Assembly: GCF_940670685.1 (NCBI RefSeq)
Contig: NZ_OW711693.1
Location: 2,728,001 to 2,792,000, forward strand
Length of the DNA stretch: 64,000 nucleotides
DNA from: Anaeropeptidivorans aminofermentans
GTDB taxonomy: Bacteria; Bacillota; Clostridia; Lachnospirales; UBA5962
Reading direction: 5' to 3'
Part shown: piece by piece, positions 49,255 through 60,687 of the stretch
Position numbering within the stretch: position 1 is the first letter of the stretch
How the letters are laid out: every line of letters begins with the position of its first letter
The notes under the pieces: generated by a model
The model's database searches: none
What the model was told of the DNA's origin: nothing
What the model saw: only the letters and a program-made list of their open reading frames with translations
Program-made: the position numbers and the translations under genes

Positions 49255-49833
49255 ATGGACGAACGTGAAACAAGGCTGTTTTACGCTGCTTCCAAAGGTG
49301 ACACAGAAGCCTTTGAAAGCTTCATCATTAAATACGAAAAGTTAATATATAATGCTGCATACCGTATGCTTCCCACTCCTTCCGATGCCGAGGACATAGC
49401 CCAGGAAGTAATCATAAAGGTTTACAATAATCTTGAAAAATGCAAAAATCCACTGGCCTTTAAAAGCTGGCTCTTTCGAATAATAAATAATACCTGTATC
49501 GACGAAATACGAAAGCGAAGTAAAAATAAAACTCTTAGCCTGGATAAGCCCATAGAGGAAGACGACGGGCCCATGGAAATCAATATTGCTTCAAAGGAGC
49601 CTACCCCTGAGGAAAATCTCATGAGAAGCGAAAATATCAAAGAATTGGAAAAGGCTATCGGCCTGATGTCTGATAAATATAAATCTATCGTTGTTTTAAG
49701 AGATATTAACGGGCTAAGCTATGAAGAAATCGCCTATGCTACAAAGCTTAATCCGGGAACCGTAAAAAGCCGGCTTTCCAGAGGCCGGAAAAACCTTAAA
49801 GATATTCTTCTATCCCTCAGGGAACAAACTTAA
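49255..49833 (+). CDS. ECF (extracytoplasmic function) RNA polymerase sigma factor
   Basis: 192 residues. Sigma region 2 (about 20-90: FESFIIKYEKLIYNAAYRML, DAEDIAQEVIIKVYNNL, FKSWLFRIINNTCIDEIRKRSK) and region 4 (about 130-185: LEKAIGLMSDKYKSIVVLRDINGLSYEEIAYATKLNPGTVKSRLSRGRKNL). No region 3. It is followed immediately by an anti-sigma factor, so it is probably held inactive until an envelope signal arrives. AAAGGAGG precedes the ATG. Confidence 0.96.
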   Translation: MDERETRLFYAASKGDTEAFESFIIKYEKLIYNAAYRMLPTPSDAEDIAQEVIIKVYNNLEKCKNPLAFKSWLFRIINNTCIDEIRKRSKNKTLSLDKPIEEDDGPMEINIASKEPTPEENLMRSENIKELEKAIGLMSDKYKSIVVLRDINGLSYEEIAYATKLNPGTVKSRLSRGRKNLKDILLSLREQT

Positions 49834-49870
49834 ATGAAATTCGTCTTAAACTATGAAAGGAGGTATTCAG

Positions 49871-51136
49871 ATGAATAATTGCCATAAATACCAAGAGCTC
49901 ATGTCATTATACTTGGATAATATGCTTTCGGCAAAAGAGAAGGAAGAATTTGAAAAGCATATGGAATCCTGCGAAGAATGCAAGCTTGAGCTTTTAGGGC
50001 TTAAAGAGCTTATGTCTGAATTAAACAGCCTCCCTGAGCTTGATTTACCGGACGGATTTCATCAAAGAGCAATGGCTAAAATTAAAGAAGGAAATACCAA
50101 AAAGCATGCTTTTAACTTTTCATTCAGAAACTTTGCTGCCTTTGCACCGGCGGCGGCCTCCATGGCTATATGCTTTGTGGCATTAACATGGGCCTTATCC
50201 TCGTTTGATTTATCGGGAGGAAGTACTAAGCTTTCTTATTATTTAGAGTCTCCTGCATCGGAGGAAATAAATGAGAAAAGCGCTGCAGCAGACGCCCTTC
50301 CCGAGTTAGGCACTCCTGCTGAGAAGGCGCCGAAGCTTTCTTCAGGAAGATCAGAAGAAGCCGCGGCAGCCCCCGAGGAAGACAGCAGTTCAAATGACCT
50401 TGAGAAAAACGCACCTTTCATGTTGGCCCCAATGGAAAGCGCCGGCATGAAAATACAAGGCTATGCTTTAGAAAACAAAGAAACCTATGCTCTTGTAAGT
50501 AATTCTCTTATAAAAACAAGCTCCATCAACATTAAATCAGAAGATATTTCCAATGCGGAAGCATTTGTAAATTCTCTTCCGGTAACTGTAGAAAGCTCTT
50601 ATGTAAATCAATATGAACTTCATTATACCTTAAGAGTATCCTCTTTAGATTATAATTATGTCATTCTTTCCCTTAAGGACCTTGGCGAAGTGGAAAGAAT
50701 AAACGAAAACAGCGAAGATGTAACAGGCCGCTTAAATGAAGACATCACCCGGCTTAATGTAAAGCAGGAGGAAAAAGAACGGCTTAAAAACATGTTTGAA
50801 AAGGCTGAAACCGTAAGCGATATGCTTAAAATAGAAGAACAGGTCATAAACGCAGAAGCGAGGGCTGAAGAAATCTCCGCAAGCATCTCCCAGCTGAGTG
50901 CCCAGTCTGAAAGGCCTGCGATTTATCTTACGGTTTATCAGGAAGACGACACCCCTTCCTACAGCGACCTCTCCTTTGGAGATAAGCTGCATTCGGCATT
51001 TGTATCTTCTGTTAACTTTACATCTTATGCATTTGAAGAAATACTTATAGGAATATCCCAAGTCATATTGCCTGCTATAATAATTGCTTTAGTTTCCTTT
51101 ACCGGATACTTTCTGTTTGATAAACGGAGGCGATAA
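49871..51136 (+). CDS. anti-sigma factor with zinc-binding ZAS motif and DUF4349-like extracytoplasmic domain
   Basis: 421 residues. The N-terminal zf-HC2/ZAS domain has CHKYQELMSLYLDNML followed by H-x3-C-x2-C in EKHMESCEEC. A transmembrane helix lies at about 85-105 (FAPAAASMAICFVALTWALSSF). A disordered Glu/Ala/Ser region follows, then a DUF4349-like domain (about 215-375) with a long coiled coil (VTGRLNEDITRLNVKQEEKERLKNMF) and a C-terminal helix (ISQVILPAIIIALVSFTGYFLF). It should bind the preceding sigma factor in the cytoplasm and sense the envelope outside. The ATG at 49871 follows AAAGGAGG; the frame from 49853 begins inside that site. Confidence 0.88.
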   Translation: MNNCHKYQELMSLYLDNMLSAKEKEEFEKHMESCEECKLELLGLKELMSELNSLPELDLPDGFHQRAMAKIKEGNTKKHAFNFSFRNFAAFAPAAASMAICFVALTWALSSFDLSGGSTKLSYYLESPASEEINEKSAAADALPELGTPAEKAPKLSSGRSEEAAAAPEEDSSSNDLEKNAPFMLAPMESAGMKIQGYALENKETYALVSNSLIKTSSINIKSEDISNAEAFVNSLPVTVESSYVNQYELHYTLRVSSLDYNYVILSLKDLGEVERINENSEDVTGRLNEDITRLNVKQEEKERLKNMFEKAETVSDMLKIEEQVINAEARAEEISASISQLSAQSERPAIYLTVYQEDDTPSYSDLSFGDKLHSAFVSSVNFTSYAFEEILIGISQVILPAIIIALVSFTGYFLFDKRRR

Positions 51137-51137
51137 T

Positions 51138-52040
51138 ATGAAAAAAACTTTATTCCCTGTTTTTCTAGCTGCTTTAATTCTTATTTCAGGCTGTGGCTCA
51201 AAATCAAATTCCGCAGTCAATATAGAGGCTGAGTCCCAATCTGCAGGGGGATATGGAAGCTCAGTAGCACATGATGCCATCGAAGCACCTCAGGCTTCTG
51301 CAGTTCCGGAAGAAGAAAAAATACCCGACGGAAGCTTAGAGGCCCAAGACAGCAAAATCATTAAAACCGGAAACATGAGCATTTCCGTAACTAATTTTGA
51401 TGAAAAGATAGATGCCATAAAAAGCTTTGCCGAAGAGAACGGCGGCTATATACAAAACTCAAATATTTATAACCGCACTTCCGGCGGAAGGGAATACAGA
51501 AGCGCAAACTTCACCTTAAGAATTCCTGCCGAAAATTATGATTTGCTTAAAGAGTATTTGATTTCTCTTGGAAAGCTTGAAGATTACAGCGACCAGATAG
51601 ACGATGTAACAAATGAATATTACGATATAGAAAGCCGCCTTAACACAAAGCGCAGAGAAGAAACAAGGCTTCTGGAGCTTTTAGATAAGGCAGATAAAAT
51701 TGAGGATATTATAACCATTGAAGCTCGTCTTTCAGAGGTTCGCTCGGATATTGAAATTTATGAAATGCGAATGAAAGGCATGGATGAACTCGTATCCTAC
51801 TCTACTTTATATCTTAATGTAAAGGAAGACTTATCCGGCTCTATTCAGCCTGTAGGAGATAATCTTGGTTCAAGAATCCTTTCGGGATTAAAATCTTCTG
51901 TGAATAATACCGTAAGATTTTTTGAATCCTTAATCGTAGGCATTGCCTATGCATTCGTTCCCCTTGTTTCCATAGGAATAATTATTATAGTGGGATTATT
52001 CGTATATAAAAGGACGAATAAAAAGAAAAATCAAGAATAA
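51138..52040 (+). CDS. DUF4349 lipoprotein
   Basis: 300 residues. The signal peptide MKKTLFPVFLAALILISGC ends in a lipobox with Cys19. The DUF4349 domain (about 75-250) contains TGNMSISVTNFDEKIDAIKSFAEENGGYIQNS, VTNEYYDIESRLNTKRREETRLLELLDKAD, IEARLSEVRSDIE and VSYSTLYLNVKE. A C-terminal transmembrane helix is followed by a Lys-rich end. It is paralogous to the outer domain of the anti-sigma factor, and starts 2 nt after that gene stops, so the two probably act together at the membrane. GGAGGCG sets the ATG at 51138. Confidence 0.9.
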   Translation: MKKTLFPVFLAALILISGCGSKSNSAVNIEAESQSAGGYGSSVAHDAIEAPQASAVPEEEKIPDGSLEAQDSKIIKTGNMSISVTNFDEKIDAIKSFAEENGGYIQNSNIYNRTSGGREYRSANFTLRIPAENYDLLKEYLISLGKLEDYSDQIDDVTNEYYDIESRLNTKRREETRLLELLDKADKIEDIITIEARLSEVRSDIEIYEMRMKGMDELVSYSTLYLNVKEDLSGSIQPVGDNLGSRILSGLKSSVNNTVRFFESLIVGIAYAFVPLVSIGIIIIVGLFVYKRTNKKKNQE

Positions 52041-53666: not shown

Positions 53667-54920
53667 CTAAATCAAGTTTTTATTGATATATTTAGCAAGC
53701 TTTCCCATACAGTTTACATAGCAGCCAAATTCATTGTCATACCAGCCGAATATTTTCGCATGGGTTACGGGAATATTCATATTGCCGCTTGCCTGCAGAT
53801 TATGGCGGCGGAGGGTTTCTTCATCAATCTGTAAAAAGCCCGTTCTCGTATGGCTTTCAAGGCCTTCTATAACGACTGCCGCAGGGCAGCCCATTAAGTC
53901 GGAAGAAACGTTTTGATTTTCACTGAAAATCAGCAGGCCCCTCTGCCCTCCCTCAGCGGATTTTTTATAAATATCGTTAATAAATTCTCTTGTAATAATC
54001 GGGTTTCCCGCTTCATCAAATATTGTATGAAAAGTAAGATTAAGGGAAATCAAAGAAACTGTGCTTGTGGGAACACGAATAGAGTCCGCCATGAAGCCGA
54101 CTTTTTTCATTTCAGGAATAATTTCTTCCAATGTGCTTGCAGCGCCTGTAGAGGTTGGGATAAGATTATTAAATACAGAACGGCTGCGCCTTAAATCCTT
54201 GCTTCCAGCCTTTGGGGGCACATCAAGAATGCTCTGGTTATTTGTCGAAGCATGAACTGTCGTCATAGAGGCCGTTATAATATCCGTTGTCTCCTTCGTA
54301 TCCACAAGGGGCTTAATCATATGAGCAAGGCCTGTTGTGGTACAGCTTGCAGCAGAAATAATATTATGTTTTAAAGGATTATATGAAAAATGATTTACAC
54401 CGTAGACGAAAGTCGCGCTGTCTTCCGGGGCCCCGTGAGAGACATCTTTAATCTTAAAGGGGGCGCTGACGATTACCTTTTCGGCTCCTGCCTCCAGATG
54501 ACCTCTTAAGCTTCCTTTCGGGTGGTCTGCCGGAAGGGAAGGGTCTAAAAACGCACCGGTACAGTCAATAACAAGCCTTACCCCTTCTTTCGCCCAATTA
54601 ATATCCCTTGGATTTCTTGCCGCTTTTAAAAGCTTAACAGGAACACCGCATAATTCTATAAGGCAATCGGAACGGCTGATTATTTTTGCTTCACAGGTAT
54701 TTCCTGTATAGCCGAATAAAAACCTGTCAAGGGTACCATAAGTAGAATCTGACGTAAGATAGGAAATTGCATCTTCAAGACTCTTGCCTATTTCCCTGCC
54801 GGCATTTAATACGATGCCGTCATAGTATTTTTGATACAGATTATTCCAAAGCGTAAGCTTTCCGATTCTGCCGATGCCGTTAATGCCCAGTACTTTTTTG
54901 CCTTCCATTTTCATTTCCAA
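53667..54920 (-). CDS. atypical glyceraldehyde-3-phosphate dehydrogenase family protein
   Basis: 417 residues against about 335 for normal GAPDH. Homology covers the whole enzyme: NAD-binding INGIGRIGKLTLW; active-site SAASCTTTGLAHMI with Cys193 (usual form NASCTTNCLAP); TVHASTNNQ with the catalytic histidine; phosphate-site IPTSTGAASTLEEIIPEM; and C-terminal WYDNEFGCYVNCMGKLAKYI. Extra length lies mainly in insertions around residues 40-110 and 330-370. The change of Asn to Thr after CTT is unusual. It may be a GAPDH with altered substrate or cofactor use rather than the glycolytic enzyme. The likely start is TTG at 54920, eight nt after AGGAGG; ATG at 54914 is an alternative. Confidence 0.85.
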   Translation of the reverse strand: MEMKMEGKKVLGINGIGRIGKLTLWNNLYQKYYDGIVLNAGREIGKSLEDAISYLTSDSTYGTLDRFLFGYTGNTCEAKIISRSDCLIELCGVPVKLLKAARNPRDINWAKEGVRLVIDCTGAFLDPSLPADHPKGSLRGHLEAGAEKVIVSAPFKIKDVSHGAPEDSATFVYGVNHFSYNPLKHNIISAASCTTTGLAHMIKPLVDTKETTDIITASMTTVHASTNNQSILDVPPKAGSKDLRRSRSVFNNLIPTSTGAASTLEEIIPEMKKVGFMADSIRVPTSTVSLISLNLTFHTIFDEAGNPIITREFINDIYKKSAEGGQRGLLIFSENQNVSSDLMGCPAAVVIEGLESHTRTGFLQIDEETLRRHNLQASGNMNIPVTHAKIFGWYDNEFGCYVNCMGKLAKYINKNLI

Positions 54921-54941: not shown

Positions 54942-55169
54942 TTAATTTTCTATAATGTAATGTGAAAAGTCCAAAGGACTTTTCACATTATGAGTATCAA
55001 TTTGCAGCGTTTTTCTGCAAATTTGTACGAATAGCTTCATAAATTCAGCAGAGATGCAATCGATACCGCCTGCCCCCCCTTGGCTTGTCAAGGGAAAGTC
55101 CAAAGGACTTTTCACGTTACAAGTACCAATTTGCAGTGTTTTTCTGCAAATTTGTACGAATAGCTTCAT
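54942..55169 (-). other. 75-codon frame across the tandem repeat, doubtful gene
   Basis: The frame would give two similar 25-residue units beginning MKLFVQICRKTLQI and ending NVKSPLDF. No ribosome-binding site precedes the ATG, and the DNA is better explained as a structured repeat. It is listed because the frame is maintained, but probably it is not translated. Confidence 0.2.
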
Positions 55170-55207
55170 AAATTCAGCAGAGATGAAATCGATACCGCCT
55201 GCCCCCC
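54961..55207. repeat. 129-bp tandem repeat, two copies
   Basis: Two copies, offset exactly 129 bp, about 93% alike. Each has hairpin AAAGTCC-AAA-GGACTTT, a second hairpin AATTTGCAG...CTGCAAATT, then ACGAATAGCTTCATAAATTC and ATCGATACCGCCTGCCCCCC. Because 129 is a multiple of three, a minus-strand frame stays open through both copies (55169-54942). Confidence 0.85.
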
Positions 55208-55254: not shown

Positions 55255-58200
55255 TTAATCCTGATTGACTGCATATGCGCCTCTGAATATGTTGCCTTGC
55301 TCGCCTTCGATGGAAATAGGGTCGCCTGAACGGATAATATTTCCGTTTATCATACACATGTTTTCAGATTCTTTTACATGAAGCCCCTGGCATTTTACGA
55401 TGCAGACCTTTCCCAGATTAACGGCAGTAACAGCGGCATGAGAGGTTGCGCCCCCTTTGGCTGTAACAAGGCCGTCACAGGCAAAAAGCATAGGGATATC
55501 GTCTGGAACCGTATCGGGGCGAATCAATATAATGGGCTCATTTGGCTTTTCTTCCTTTATGCGGTTCATATCCTCCATATCAAAGGCTGCAATACCTGAT
55601 AAAGCGCCGCCGCTTATGCCGATTCCTCTGCCTATCATCTGCATTTCATTAGGGGAAGCTTCAAAATAGCGGCTGGTTTTCTTCCCTATGACCTTTTGGT
55701 TTCGGGTCTGCAAAATATAAATGCTATCCGGGTTATCGTCTTCAAAGGTAAATTCTATCTCCTGATGGACAAATCCGTGCTGTTCAATAAGCTGCCTTGC
55801 ATATTGATACAAGGTCTTGTAAACCTCGGGAAATTCCGATTCCAAAGAAATTTCTCCCTGATACTGGCTTTTACGCTGGGTTTCGGAAATAGGCAAGGTG
55901 TTTACAAGCCCTGAAACCACGTCCTCCCCCTGGCCGCATATGGCAAAGTCTCCGTAAAGATTAATACTCGAATAATCCTTTAAAGGGCTGCTAGTAAATA
56001 TAACCCCTGTTCCCGATCTTTTAGATAAATTCCCTAAAACCATTTTCTGTATTAAAACTGCCGTTCCCCATTCGCTTGCAATCTGCATATAATCCCTAAA
56101 AGATACGGAGCTTTCAGATTCCCATGAATCAAGAACGTATTGTATGGCAATTTTAAGCTGTTCAATAGGCTCCGTTTCTATAATAATGCCATGGTCAAGA
56201 ACAGCTTTTTTGTAGTCAAAGGCCATATTGCGCATTTGCTCTTTTGTAAACTCTATTTTAAGCTCAATACCCGCCCGTTCTTTATGCTCGGCCATAATTT
56301 TATCGAATATATCCCTGTTTACGCCAAAAGCCATTCCCCAGCTTTGCAAAAACCTTCTGTAGCAGTCCCACGCTGTCCAGCCGTAAGGTTCGTTTTCTCC
56401 CCAAGCCTCTGCGATTTCATCATTCATGCCCACATTTAAAAATGTTTTCATAGCCCCGGGAAAAGATATAAAAGAGCCGGAACGGACGGAAAAGAACAGC
56501 GGATTTGAAGGATCTCCGAAGATTTTACCTGTCTGCCTTTCTATGTCTGCTATGGACTGCTCTATGGCTTTAATAAAGTCCTGAAGCATATAGCGGTTCT
56601 GATATAAAGGTTCAATATGGCGGAAGGCCTCCGTCGTTATAACAAACCCGGGAGGAACCGGAAATCCGTAGGCTGAAAGCTTTTTCAAAAAGAAGGCCTT
56701 TGCCCCTAAAAAGATAGGGTTATCAAGCTCCGTAGTACTTTGGGAAAGAGGGCTTACAGTAAGGTCCGGGTCGTAGGTGAGCATGTTTTCAATAAAGCTT
56801 TCTGAATAAGTATCAATCATATTCCGAAGCATGCCTATGGTGTTTGAAATGAACAAATCAAGCTCTTGTATAAGAAAAGCCGAGGAAAGAATATCTCTGA
56901 AAAATTTCTCCTTTTCCATTTGTATTCTTTCTTTTGTGCATTCATGTTCGGGAAGCCCCTGAGATGTAAGAAGCCTCGGTATAATTACCGCAAGAGGGCG
57001 CTCATAGACATTGAGGAAATATCCTTTAATAATCTGGCTTACGTCTTGGCCGAGAAATTGGAATATGTTGATATACTGGCTTAAGGAAAAGCTTGGTGAG
57101 GTTAAGCTGTATTTAAACATCTCCAAGTGGGAATTAAAGCTTTGGTCATAAATTCCGTCAAGAGCAAGGCCCTCTTTCAGTAAAACCAGCACATCATAAA
57201 TTTGGCGCAAGGTCTTTGCGGTTATATATTCATGAGAAATAGTGGAAAGAAGACCTGCCATAAGCTTGGAAACCACCCGCTCAAGCCTGTACATAAGCCC
57301 CAGAGCCTCAAATTTAGGCTCTTTATACTGTCCGTAGGTGGAAGGTATCCCTGCGGCAATATGGCGCTTATATTGTATGTTTTCAAAGGCCTCTGTTTTT
57401 TCCGGATCTAATATTACGGCCTTTAAATGATTCATCATTTTATAAAGAAGCCCTATTGCCTTGTCATTGTATTTATTCTTTAAGTAAATCCGCAAGTGCT
57501 CTAAATCGTCTTTACTGAAAAACAAGGTCTTTTCCACAAGAGAAATCACGTCGTCTGTCTCAAAGGAGTATTTTTCCAGAAGCAAGGCGTGAATATGTAT
57601 AATGTCTATGACCTTGCTCAAATGGACATTTACGTCCTTTCCTTCAGGCTGAGCCAGTTTTTCAAGGTCTTCGGCCCTTAGCTTAAGAAGCTCAGGAAGG
57701 CTTAAAGAAAGCTCTTCGCATAAACGCATCATGGCCTCATGGGCCTTTTCATGCCAGTCTTTATCCTCTTCTAAGGTATTATAAAGGGCTTCCGGCAAAA
57801 GGTCCTTAAGGACGGTTTTATCCCCGTCATACCAATACTGTATGATGCTTCTCGTAAGGGCAACATTTGTATTATTGCTTTCAACATGAATCTGTACCCG
57901 TAAAAAGTGGATAAGGCGGTCTTTTCTCATGGAAAGGCCATCGATAGCCGTCGTGACCTTCCTTAAAGTTCCTTCTGCGCCAATATCCTGAAAAAACACG
58001 GGGAAAATACGGGTAAGCTGCTTAATTTCCCTATAAACAGGGCCTATGTCTGAATTTAAAAGCTTTGTCACGTCCCTCTGGAAAAGGTCCGTATCAGAAA
58101 TATAGATGCCACCCAGCTTAAGCTCTACAATCATAGCGTTAAAAAGCTCCCTCATTAAAAAAGGGTCCTTTTCTATGATTTCTAAAAATACACGGATATT

Positions 58201-59340
58201 TTTTACATGATTGGTATTAAACTGTACCTGCCAATCGCTGTTAAGCTTGATATTTCCCGGATATATGAAGCCGAATTGTATCATTCGTTTTATAAAATAG
58301 GAAATTGCCGCCTTGTTTTTAAGGCTTGCCACTTCTTTACCTAAAGTGGTTATACAGTCAAGAACGGTTCTTGTATGGTCTTCTTTTAACTCTTCAAGCT
58401 CTCCTAAGATGGAATTCAGAAAGTCTGAAACCTTATCCTGGGGCAGCTCTTTGAAAACACTCCTTAAATTACGGTTCATATCATACAGAAGATGGTCATA
58501 AAGAGTTGACATCAAAGGCAGATGAAGCAAGTATATAAGATATTGAATTGCCTCCAGATTAGATTCAAATTCCTTCGTGAAGTTTCTGAAGTAGTTGGAA
58601 ATATCTTTAAAAAATAGTACATGGCGTATTTCCTGCCATGACCCGGCATTTTTAAGCTCTGCCCGCAAATGCGCAAAAAACGAATGACCTATTTTTGTGA
58701 TTTTTTCTTCATTCATTACAGTAAAAAGATGCCTTTTCGTCCTAAACCATTCTTCGGCCTTGGATGTTTCCTCCCAATAATCAAAACATTTCTCAAGTGT
58801 GTAAGAAGTTATCTGCATAATTAAGGGAAGATATTCCTCATGACGGGCAAGCTTATCAAAGCCTGATTTGAAATAGCCTGAATTTCTTATGTAAATTTCT
58901 TCATGGAAGGGAATGTCTTTTTCAATAATTGAAAAGCATCTTGAAATGATTGCCTTTGAAAAGTTTTCTTTCGTTGAAAGCCTATCTATAAATTGAATAA
59001 AGGTCGTCACCAAAACTTCCCTGTCGGCTTCTTTCTTTACGGAAACCATAAGCTTTTCGAATATATCCACAATGATTGAAAGGGCCTTCTCCGAATCCGT
59101 AAGAGAATGATAAAACCAGTAATCTTCAAGGCAAATGCTATGAAGTAAATCTATCACATGCTTATCGTTTCTGAATTCATGATTTAATTCCGTAAGAAAC
59201 TCCTTTGCCCTGTTGTGAATGCCCCAGGTGGAGGCAGAAACATTCATAAGCCATTGCTGATCTTTAGGGATTTCTTGAATTTTATCAAGTGTACGGGATA
59301 AATTAGCTTCCAATGCCATAGAAGAAAGCATATTTTTCAT
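55255..59340 (-). CDS. large PEP/pyruvate-binding domain protein (PEP synthase/PPDK-like, no PEP barrel)
   Basis: 1361 residues. Residues 1 to about 865 are helical and Leu/Glu-rich, with no family I recognise. About 870-1215 is the PPDK_N ATP-grasp domain: NPIFLGAKAFFLKKLSAYGFPVPPGFVITTEAF, PLFFSVRSGSFISFPGAMKTFLNVG, WDCYRRFLQSWG, and the late HGFVHQEIEFTF. The mobile phosphohistidine domain ends the chain, with GGATSHAAV (His1301). The C-terminal PEP-binding TIM barrel of PEP synthase and PPDK is absent. It may transfer phosphate from ATP via the histidine to another substrate, as rifampin phosphotransferase and glucan water dikinases do. A TTG two codons upstream is in frame, but ATG at 59340 fits GGAGAG best. 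Confidence 0.85.
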   Translation of the reverse strand: MKNMLSSMALEANLSRTLDKIQEIPKDQQWLMNVSASTWGIHNRAKEFLTELNHEFRNDKHVIDLLHSICLEDYWFYHSLTDSEKALSIIVDIFEKLMVSVKKEADREVLVTTFIQFIDRLSTKENFSKAIISRCFSIIEKDIPFHEEIYIRNSGYFKSGFDKLARHEEYLPLIMQITSYTLEKCFDYWEETSKAEEWFRTKRHLFTVMNEEKITKIGHSFFAHLRAELKNAGSWQEIRHVLFFKDISNYFRNFTKEFESNLEAIQYLIYLLHLPLMSTLYDHLLYDMNRNLRSVFKELPQDKVSDFLNSILGELEELKEDHTRTVLDCITTLGKEVASLKNKAAISYFIKRMIQFGFIYPGNIKLNSDWQVQFNTNHVKNIRVFLEIIEKDPFLMRELFNAMIVELKLGGIYISDTDLFQRDVTKLLNSDIGPVYREIKQLTRIFPVFFQDIGAEGTLRKVTTAIDGLSMRKDRLIHFLRVQIHVESNNTNVALTRSIIQYWYDGDKTVLKDLLPEALYNTLEEDKDWHEKAHEAMMRLCEELSLSLPELLKLRAEDLEKLAQPEGKDVNVHLSKVIDIIHIHALLLEKYSFETDDVISLVEKTLFFSKDDLEHLRIYLKNKYNDKAIGLLYKMMNHLKAVILDPEKTEAFENIQYKRHIAAGIPSTYGQYKEPKFEALGLMYRLERVVSKLMAGLLSTISHEYITAKTLRQIYDVLVLLKEGLALDGIYDQSFNSHLEMFKYSLTSPSFSLSQYINIFQFLGQDVSQIIKGYFLNVYERPLAVIIPRLLTSQGLPEHECTKERIQMEKEKFFRDILSSAFLIQELDLFISNTIGMLRNMIDTYSESFIENMLTYDPDLTVSPLSQSTTELDNPIFLGAKAFFLKKLSAYGFPVPPGFVITTEAFRHIEPLYQNRYMLQDFIKAIEQSIADIERQTGKIFGDPSNPLFFSVRSGSFISFPGAMKTFLNVGMNDEIAEAWGENEPYGWTAWDCYRRFLQSWGMAFGVNRDIFDKIMAEHKERAGIELKIEFTKEQMRNMAFDYKKAVLDHGIIIETEPIEQLKIAIQYVLDSWESESSVSFRDYMQIASEWGTAVLIQKMVLGNLSKRSGTGVIFTSSPLKDYSSINLYGDFAICGQGEDVVSGLVNTLPISETQRKSQYQGEISLESEFPEVYKTLYQYARQLIEQHGFVHQEIEFTFEDDNPDSIYILQTRNQKVIGKKTSRYFEASPNEMQMIGRGIGISGGALSGIAAFDMEDMNRIKEEKPNEPIILIRPDTVPDDIPMLFACDGLVTAKGGATSHAAVTAVNLGKVCIVKCQGLHVKESENMCMINGNIIRSGDPISIEGEQGNIFRGAYAVNQD

Positions 59341-59346
59341 AATCAA

Positions 59347-59761: not shown

Positions 59762-60241
59762 CGCTACAGTATTTAAACTTATTATTTCATTTTCAGGCAG
59801 AAGATTTCTTCGAGATATCTGCCGCCGTCATTATCTTCTCCTATTGGAACAAAGCCTGCTTTTTGGCAAGATGTTTCCGGCAGCTATTCTGATATTAATG
59901 CTTAAATATATTTCTTCACATTGGAAAAGCCTACTTATTTCATCAATAATAATTTTCAGCGCTTCTTTTCCATAGCCCATGCTTTAACATCTTTCATCGG
60001 TTGTAAAATGACAAATATCATATTTTTTTCTTCTTCACTATAGCCAGCCGATGATGCAATCAATTTTTGCTATGGCCTTTATTACCCAGCCCTTTTCATC
60101 AGCAGGTTAAGCAATAGAATAGGAATTGGGAGCGCCGAAGTCCTCTGCTTCTTTCCCCAGTTTTAAATGGCATACTGTTCGCCAGTTTTCATTTGCTATA
60201 TCTGCCAGCTTTATATTATGCATTCCTTTGGCAACTTCCAT
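59762..60241 (-). pseudogene. decayed GNAT acetyltransferase gene
   Basis: The minus strand reads MEVAKGMHNIKLADIANENW, then VCHLKLGKEAEDFGAPNSYSIA, and then a TAA stop. This matches the start of BltD-type polyamine or small GNAT acetyltransferases (LKLxxEQxxFVAPNxYSIA). Later pieces in other frames resemble the acetyl-CoA region and the end: GYGKEALKIIIDEISRLFQCEEIYLSINI and GDDNGG-like text. Hence at least one nonsense and two or more frameshift changes. It lies directly downstream of mscL, with an intact terminator at its end. Confidence 0.75.
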
Positions 60242-60258
60242 AATAAACAATTAAAAGA

Positions 60259-60687
60259 TTAGTTTAAATCTGAGGTGCAGTTGGGGCATTTTACGGCATT
60301 TATATTGATATTGGATTTACAGTAAGGGCATTCTTTGGTTGCAGGGGCTGATTCTGCCTGCTCCGGCTTTTTCTTTCCCATGTCCATAGCCTTATTTATG
60401 AATTTTACCAGAATAAAAATAACAAAAGCAATTAAAAGGAAATTAAGAATGGCAGATAGAAACATACCGTAATTAAGCTTTGACCCATCGCCTTCGGTGC
60501 TTAAAATTATGTACCAGTTTTGAAAATCGCTTCCGCCTGTAATAAGGGAAAGTACAGGCATCAGTATATCATTCACGAGGGAATTGACAATGGCAGTAAA
60601 TGCGGAGCCGATAATAACTCCCACTGCTAAATCCATAACATTTCCTCTGTTTATAAATTCCTTAAACTCCTGAAATATCTTCTTCAT
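60259..60687 (-). CDS. mscL: large-conductance mechanosensitive channel MscL with C-terminal zinc ribbon
   Basis: 142 residues. The channel part is complete: FQEFKEFINRGNVMDLAVGVIIGSAFTAIVNSLVNDILMPVLSLITGG with TM1, a periplasm-side loop, TM2 (FLLIAFVIFILVKFINKAM). The usual cytoplasmic helix is followed by CPYCKSNININAVKCPNC, a four-cysteine zinc ribbon not present in classic MscL. The channel opens under membrane tension to release solutes on osmotic downshock. AAGGAGG precedes the ATG. Confidence 0.96.
   Translation of the reverse strand: MKKIFQEFKEFINRGNVMDLAVGVIIGSAFTAIVNSLVNDILMPVLSLITGGSDFQNWYIILSTEGDGSKLNYGMFLSAILNFLLIAFVIFILVKFINKAMDMGKKKPEQAESAPATKECPYCKSNININAVKCPNCTSDLN

Follow-up and report, generated by a model that had tools for sequence, protein, structure and literature searches.

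The locus and its genes

The window, the stretch of 64,000 nucleotides that was analysed, carries a gene for a large dikinase-type protein and, directly 3' of it, a gene for a distinct GAPDH:

55255..59340, minus strand: barrel-less dikinase gene, 1361 aa from the ATG at 59340, stop included
53667..54920, minus strand: member of a 417-aa GAPDH subfamily, obligate downstream partner of the dikinase (Pfam Gp_dh_N/C; TIGR01534; adjacency in 21/21 loci)
54966..55207, minus strand: spacer containing a 113-nt direct repeat in two copies (95% identical), a window-specific enlargement of the kinase-GAPDH spacer

The longer open reading frame of the dikinase gene has 1363 codons and runs from a TTG at 59346 to 55255 on the minus strand. 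Because a GGAG ribosome-binding site precedes the ATG at 59340, this ATG is, judged from the sequence, the better start, and it yields the 1361 residues given in the original prediction. Residue numbers of the kinase refer throughout to the 1363-aa frame, in which His1301 of the 1361-aa numbering becomes His1303. Full-length relatives of about 1355-1360 aa were found at 16 other loci, and the dikinase is therefore a genuine, conserved protein rather than a fortuitous reading frame. Searches of plasmids, phages and viral contigs gave no match, and a mobile or phage origin was rejected. Near the two genes Rfam finds only the tRNA and no RNA regulator, and our literature search returned no paper on the pair.

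Catalytic domains and the missing PEP barrel

Two domains and the catalytic residue could be placed in the C-terminal part of the kinase:

55672..56712, minus strand: PPDK-type ATP-grasp domain, residues 879-1225 (Pfam PPDK_N; phmmer to PPDK 1kbl; catalytic residues)
55276..55644, minus strand: swivelling phosphohistidine domain, residues 1235-1357 (Pfam PEP-utilizers; phmmer; Foldseek 2fm4)
55438..55440, minus strand: codon of the catalytic His1303 (GGATSHAAV), equivalent to PPDK His455, invariant in 21/21

The helical N-terminus is thus followed by the ATP-grasp domain and then directly by the His domain. Pfam recognises PPDK_N (residues 923-1225, E 3.1e-30) and PEP-utilizers (1270-1351, 5.6e-16), and phmmer aligns PPDK 1kbl to residues 879-1218 and 1235-1357. 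Kinase residues K883, R955, E1141, D1142, E1198, Q1213 and R1215 correspond to PPDK K22, R92, E279, D280, E323, Q335 and R337. Among these and the T-S-H phosphohistidine motif, which is also present, K22, R92, E323, Q335, T453 and H455 (PPDK numbering) are kept in all relatives and R337 in most, while the position of Asp321 is occupied by Glu in nearly all members. The dikinase-type ATP-grasp and swivelling His domains that had been read from the sequence are therefore well founded. By profile and phmmer comparison, the ATP-grasp domain is closer to PPDK than to PEP synthase.

With PPDK (EC 2.7.9.1) the kinase shares these two domains, at about 30-39% identity and with conserved catalytic residues. 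It differs in having no PEP/pyruvate barrel, in its 870-residue helical N-terminal extension and in its obligate GAPDH neighbour, and a separate PPDK is found in the same genomes. Neither Pfam nor phmmer detects the barrel (PEP-utilizers_C) in the kinase protein, which agrees with the original prediction. The original prediction had left room for a barrel encoded next to the orthologous genes; this was rejected, since the genome's own PPDK barrel had no match in 23 kinase neighbourhoods (294 kb). Nor does a stand-alone barrel exist in the carrier genomes tested: a PF02896 search of 17 carriers and 6 other genomes finds only frames of about 890 aa (PPDK) and about 570 aa (PTS enzyme I-sized). 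The ordinary PPDK of about 890 aa is present in 17/17 carriers tested.

The helical N-terminal region

The remainder of the kinase contains two conserved islands:

56737..59346, minus strand: residues 1-870, N-terminal region, all helix and unrecognised, presumably the acceptor or partner part (AF2, profile searches, Foldseek)
57847..58242, minus strand: conserved island 1, residues 369-500 (HVKNIR, SDTDLFQRDVTKLLN, IGAEG-LR, HF-R-Q-H-ESNN), from the density of invariant residues in 17 full-length proteins
57277..57384, minus strand: conserved island 2, residues 655-690 (KRHIA-GIPS-YG-Y-EPKFEALG), the densest invariant stretch of the protein

The AF2 model of this region is all helix (pLDDT 76.5), and residues 1-870 have no convincing match in Pfam, NCBIfam, PHROGs or PDB sequences, which agrees with the unrecognised helical N-terminus first described. 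Profile matches to COMMD8, UTP10 and Tc3 transposase (Pfam, PHROG, PDB) were rejected as homologues because they are scattered, not common to the members and of E 0.03-1. Foldseek searches with two models likewise gave no known fold, returning only karyopherin-like or generic solenoids whose TM does not exceed about 0.2 and whose rmsd is above 20 A. The region resembles the barrel of PPDK or PEP synthase in neither sequence nor fold and matches no module of these enzymes, a possibility that the original prediction had raised. Pfam, NCBIfam, profile and Foldseek searches of the kinase found no carbohydrate-binding, starch-binding or RPH-type/RIF-binding domain either. Within island 2, 16 of the 20 residues at 661-680 are invariant in the 17 full-length proteins. 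Parts of the islands fall where the structure models are least confident. The helical N-terminus is presumed to be the acceptor part, being the only candidate for it.

The partner GAPDH

The 417-aa GAPDH has the NAD(P)-binding and catalytic GAPDH domains and scores 296.8 bits against TIGR01534 (GAPDH-I), below the cut-off of 367.2. It carries three conserved insertions and is about 34% identical to the glycolytic GAPDH of its own genome. The catalytic Cys and His are present: Cys193, His223, Thr226 and Arg282 correspond to the classical C149, H176, T179 and R231. Since these catalytic and phosphate-site residues are all kept, the enzyme plausibly still acts on a phosphorylated substrate. The NAD-selective Asp after beta-2 appears to be replaced by N-[A/T/V/M]-G-R, present in 21/21 members, although the exact Asp column varies between aligners, and the top PDB profile matches are variants altered in the NAD-specificity loop (1dbv, 3dbv). 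In E. coli GAPDH, the substitutions D34A and D34K confer NADP activity, and GapB of B. subtilis is an NADP-dependent, gluconeogenic GAPDH isoenzyme (PMC9145139). The 417-aa GAPDH is thus probably NADPH-dependent. It resembles type I enzymes of the GapB kind in its catalytic Cys, His and phosphate-site residues, in its probable NADP preference and in being a second GAPDH beside a glycolytic one; its length, its insertions, its score below the TIGR01534 cut-off and its operon with a dikinase set it apart.

Linkage of the two genes

In 21/21 loci, which represent at least five families, the 417-aa GAPDH gene lies directly 3' of the kinase gene and shares its strand. It is the next gene in the window too, as had been noted, at a distance of 334 nt; in 20 relatives the spacing is -1 to 83 nt. 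The genes flanking the pair otherwise differ between families, and the two gene trees broadly agree. Among 98 genomes of one class, a complete 417-aa GAPDH never occurs without the kinase. Two apparent counter-examples were rejected, one as a fragment (G802) and the other as a deletion remnant (G796), in which one in-frame deletion took out most of both genes and joins the N-terminal ~20 residues of the kinase to the C-terminal half of the GAPDH, with the flanking genes intact. These comparisons show that the kinase cannot be separated from its partner, which forms a distinct subfamily of GAPDH. Whereas the original prediction mentioned the GAPDH as context only, this invariant neighbour is the main clue to function.

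An ordinary GAPDH is present in 17/17 carriers and an ordinary PGK in 16/17, the sole PGK-negative carrier being an 85%-complete genome. The pair is therefore an addition, and replacement of PGK or GAPDH as its sole function can be rejected. A 3-phosphoglycerate dehydrogenase (SerA) lies near the pair in one clade only, and no catabolic gene, be it for a sugar transporter, an isomerase or another function, is conserved alongside it.

Proposed function and alternatives

The constant pairing suggests an undescribed two-enzyme metabolic step, and the invariant GAPDH neighbour indicates a phosphorylated C3/C4 compound from central metabolism. The identity of the acceptor and the direction of the reaction we infer as follows. 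We tentatively favour, at somewhat less than even odds, an AMP-forming small-molecule dikinase that works with a dedicated, probably NADPH-dependent GAPDH through an acyl phosphate, in the gluconeogenic direction. ATP would phosphorylate His1303, with release of AMP and PPi or Pi, and phospho-His1303 would swing to a site for the acceptor within the helical N-terminus; there the invariant basic and polar residues of islands 369-500 and 655-690 may bind the phosphorylated acceptor. This acceptor would most likely be a carboxylate, with 3-phosphoglycerate as the first candidate, and the product an acyl phosphate, 1,3-bisphosphoglycerate or an analogue, which the partner GAPDH would reduce to the aldehyde, probably with NADPH. 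The pair would then correspond to PGK and GAPDH, but run irreversibly and under a strong driving force. PGK/GAPDH, LysC/Asd, ProB/ProA and ArgB/ArgC each combine a kinase with a GAPDH-fold or other acyl-phosphate reductase; the present pair may follow the same logic, but its kinase is a phosphohistidine dikinase, unrelated to those kinases.

The superfamily's characterised dikinases phosphorylate hydroxyl or enol oxygens and not carboxylates, which counts against the proposal, as do the Asp321 to Glu exchange, the restriction of SerA to one clade and an N-terminus with no recognisable substrate-binding fold. In favour of the proposal, a phosphohistidine relay on to a carboxylate has been described for ADP-forming acyl-CoA synthetases (PMC11494057), and SerA is close to the pair in the one clade. 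As the carriers already have GAPDH and PGK, the proposed step would be redundant unless it serves direction or cofactor. In its most specific form, a 3-phosphoglycerate dikinase with a phosphohistidine carrier and a new helical acceptor domain that forms AMP and feeds 1,3-bisphosphoglycerate to a dedicated NADPH-dependent GAPDH, as a second, irreversible and evolutionarily independent PGK step in gluconeogenesis, the proposal is possible but doubtful. If true, PGK, which serves one of the most universal metabolic steps, would have a non-homologous, two-bond-driven alternative.

Unlikely, yet to be taken seriously, is a dikinase that phosphorylates an aldose or hydroxy-aldehyde such as glyceraldehyde or erythrose, the GAPDH then oxidising the phosphorylated aldehyde in a catabolic or detoxifying pair. 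The relatives that have been characterised, namely RPH, phenylphosphate synthase, HpeHI and CreHI, all phosphorylate hydroxyl oxygens (PMC4844700, PMC12167813), and the conserved catalytic and phosphate-site residues of the GAPDH would suit this reaction; its predicted NADP preference, however, fits reduction better, and the pair lacks the conserved catabolic company. We regard it as distinctly unlikely that the kinase phosphorylates the GAPDH protein, or serves it as a scaffold by way of the helical solenoid, phosphorylation switching a second GAPDH according to the AMP/ATP state. One-to-one adjacency and joint loss fit an enzyme and its target, and the modelled N-terminus resembles a protein-binding solenoid, but its densest islands are compact, basic or polar and look like a small-molecule site. 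In addition, no dikinase of this fold is known to phosphorylate a protein acceptor beyond its own domains, which counts against such a role.

Alternatively, the pair could conserve energy in reverse, the GAPDH making 1,3-bisphosphoglycerate from which the dikinase, with AMP and PPi, would form ATP, as an alternative to PGK that is linked to PPi. The PPDK reaction is reversible and involves PPi, and the PPDK-like rather than PEP-synthase-like ATP-grasp domain would agree with this; the predicted NADP preference of the GAPDH and the retained ordinary PGK make it improbable. That the kinase is a divergent PPDK or PEP synthase, its helical N-terminus replacing the barrel and still binding pyruvate, is highly improbable: its best domain matches are to PPDK, but all carriers tested already have one, the N-terminus is unlike the barrel, and the GAPDH would be left unexplained. 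To the glucan or antibiotic kinase of the original prediction we give next to no credence, as the kinase shares its carrier domains with glucan water dikinase and RPH but has none of their acceptor-binding domains, resembles RPH in the His and ATP-grasp domains only and less than it does PPDK, and is linked invariantly to a GAPDH.

Comparison with other dikinases

In the dikinase superfamily the acceptor domain has been exchanged several times, to act on pyruvate, glucan, rifampin and phenols. The kinase described here would be a further exchange of this kind, its acceptor part having no known fold; unusually, it also has a strictly conserved partner gene, which points to the type of metabolite. 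Glucan, water dikinase and phosphoglucan, water dikinase also have a large N-terminal part followed by the carrier domains, and no PEP barrel. Both have N-terminal starch-binding domains and the His domain before the ATP-grasp domain; our kinase shows the opposite order and no starch-binding domain. RPH and other small-molecule dikinases share the ATP-grasp and swivelling His domains, an exchanged acceptor domain and the AMP-forming logic (PMC4844700). However, RPH is ordered ATP-grasp, acceptor, His and the kinase acceptor candidate, ATP-grasp, His; the acceptor domain of the kinase is unrelated and its ATP-grasp nearer to PPDK. Against the RPH profile NF041857 the kinase reaches 33.5 of 999 bits, with no RIF-BD match between the domains. 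PpsAB (phenylphosphate synthase), HpeHI and CreHI are likewise barrel-less dikinases with other acceptors (PMC12167813), but they consist of two subunits with a PEP-synthase-like ATP-grasp domain and phenolic acceptors, whereas the kinase is a single chain in 17/17 full-length members and is partnered by a GAPDH.

Gene and catalytic domains

The dikinase is real and conserved, and its gene precedes that of an atypical GAPDH of about 417 residues (417-GAPDH):

59346-55255, minus strand: dikinase open reading frame, 1363 codons counted from TTG
59340, minus strand: ATG preceded by GGAGAG
55440-55438, minus strand: catalytic His codon of the dikinase
53667-54920, minus strand: 417-GAPDH

Translation from the ATG gives the 1361 residues originally predicted; residue numbers here follow the 1363-residue frame. 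In Pfam, the C-terminal third matches PPDK_N (3.1e-30) and PEP-utilizers (5.6e-16), with no match to PEP-utilizers_C. The top NCBIfam model is PPDK (361 of 843 bits), phmmer aligns residues 879-1218 and 1235-1357 to PPDK 1kbl, and Foldseek matches the C-terminal part to PPDK over about 535 columns (E 1e-24). Mapped on PPDK, residues K22, R92, E279, D280, E323, Q335, T453 and H455 are kept in every family member containing the region (n=21); the R337 position is Arg or Lys across the family, and that of D321 is Glu in nearly all members. Pfam, NCBIfam, phmmer and residue mapping bear out the original prediction of ATP-grasp and phosphohistidine domains with no PEP barrel.

The N-terminus, which had been called unrecognised, stayed so: residues 1-870 match nothing in Pfam, NCBIfam, PHROG or PDB sequences, singly or as a six-member family, and the Foldseek hits there were confined to karyopherin-like helical solenoids of a generic kind, with TM at most 0.2. 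AlphaFold2 models it as all-helical (pLDDT 76.5); a second model, of residues 164-1363 and built with 20 sequences, reached 79.5. Invariant residues form two islands, 369-500 and 655-690, in which K, R, H, D, E, N and S are abundant. Among 17 full-length proteins, 16 of the 20 residues at 661-680 are invariant, a density equal to that of the phosphohistidine loop. Model confidence is low in the His loop and in parts of both islands, which may contain the acceptor site.

Within the window's order the dikinase is confined to its own genome (1/392); it occurs in 6 of 398 genomes of a phylum sample and in 18 of 98 of one class. One close relative (76% identity), in a 'Eubacteriales bacterium' MAG (L033), comes from the genome collection, and searches of plasmids, phages and viral contigs found no relatives. 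This patchiness suggests horizontal transfer or repeated loss.

Linkage to the GAPDH

The main result is a strong functional link between the dikinase and 417-GAPDH, to which adjacency, co-occurrence, shared deletion and tree agreement all lead. As predicted for the window, 417-GAPDH is the next same-strand gene, here in all 21 loci whose contig continues past the kinase. The pair spans at least five families (f1, f44, f58, f110, f117) with differing outer flanks. In one class, (nearly) complete 417-GAPDHs score 600-830 bits against their profile, versus at most about 150 for ordinary GAPDH, and all 17 genomes with the 417-type carry the kinase. The sole kinase lacking the GAPDH is an 89-residue fragment at a contig end (G784). 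Remnants persist in two kinase-less genomes, as a fragment in G802 and a fusion in G796 (L093:7256-8100). The latter joins the first ~20 dikinase residues, in frame, to the C-terminal half of the GAPDH, the junction lying at a short ETRET motif common to both genes; the flanks are syntenic, with nagB, DUF362 and serA still present. Unless an assembly artefact, it is a single deletion that took out most of both genes. Well-supported groups agree between the two protein trees.

Spacing is -1 to 83 nt in relatives versus 334 nt in the window, where the spacer contains two 113-nt direct repeats (54966-55078 and 55095-55207, 95% identical) with palindromic AAAGTCCTTTGGACTTTT ends; the relatives have almost no spacer.

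The pair is an addition to the ordinary enzymes, since carriers keep ordinary GAPDH (17/17 tested), PPDK of about 890 aa (17/17) and PGK (16/17, the exception being a genome 85% complete). The window's own genome also holds an ordinary PPDK (892 aa) and GAPDH. The barrel might have lain in a separate gene; no stand-alone PEP barrel was found in the 17 carriers tested.

Possible reaction

By membership the dikinase is not a PPDK, PEP synthase, RPH or GWD. It is a new architecture in a known superfamily; its acceptor part is unrecognised, its GAPDH partner is obligate, and it would work like the small-molecule dikinases. A kinase gene beside a GAPDH-fold dehydrogenase is the usual sign of acyl-phosphate chemistry, in which the kinase makes R-CO-OPO3 and the dehydrogenase reduces it. 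The dikinase would autophosphorylate on its phosphohistidine domain and could form an acyl phosphate, spending two phosphoanhydride bonds; 417-GAPDH would then reduce it, a direction made nearly irreversible by that expenditure. In ADP-forming acyl-CoA synthetases a phosphohistidine passes phosphate to a carboxylate (PMC11494057), although the acceptors of the dikinases known so far are hydroxyls (PMC4844700, PMC12167813).

417-GAPDH retains catalytic Cys193 and His223 and equivalents of T179 and R231, and has three conserved insertions. Because it still looks suited to a C3 phosphate, 3-PG is the simplest candidate acceptor. In the f44 clade (L069, L071, L072, L074, L075, L076), nagB (glucosamine-6-phosphate deaminase-like) recurs upstream of the pair, while downstream of it recur a DUF362/ferredoxin protein and SerA, a 3-phosphoglycerate dehydrogenase whose presence hints weakly at 3-phosphoglycerate.

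At the site of N-D in NAD enzymes, 417-GAPDH has N-[A/T/V/M]-G-R, and its best PDB profile matches include B. stearothermophilus GAPDH sequences altered in this loop (1dbv, 3dbv). E. coli GAPDH gains NADP activity when the NAD-site Asp becomes Ala or Lys, and B. subtilis GapB, a gluconeogenic isoenzyme, uses NADP (PMC9145139). We predict that 417-GAPDH prefers NADP.

Neighbouring features

Other features lie near the dikinase:

59800-60260, minus strand: degenerate frame that we take to resemble a GNAT acetyltransferase, EVAKGMHNIKLADIANENWRTVCHLKLGKEAEDFGAPNSYSIA followed by stops and frame changes
60259-60687, minus strand: MscL with an extra C-terminal zinc-ribbon-like tail, CPYCKSNININAVKCPNC
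49255-52040, plus strand: ECF sigma factor, then a zinc-finger anti-sigma/DUF4349 fusion and a second, lipoprotein-like DUF4349 protein

The GNAT-like frame, between mscL and the dikinase, is probably a pseudogene.
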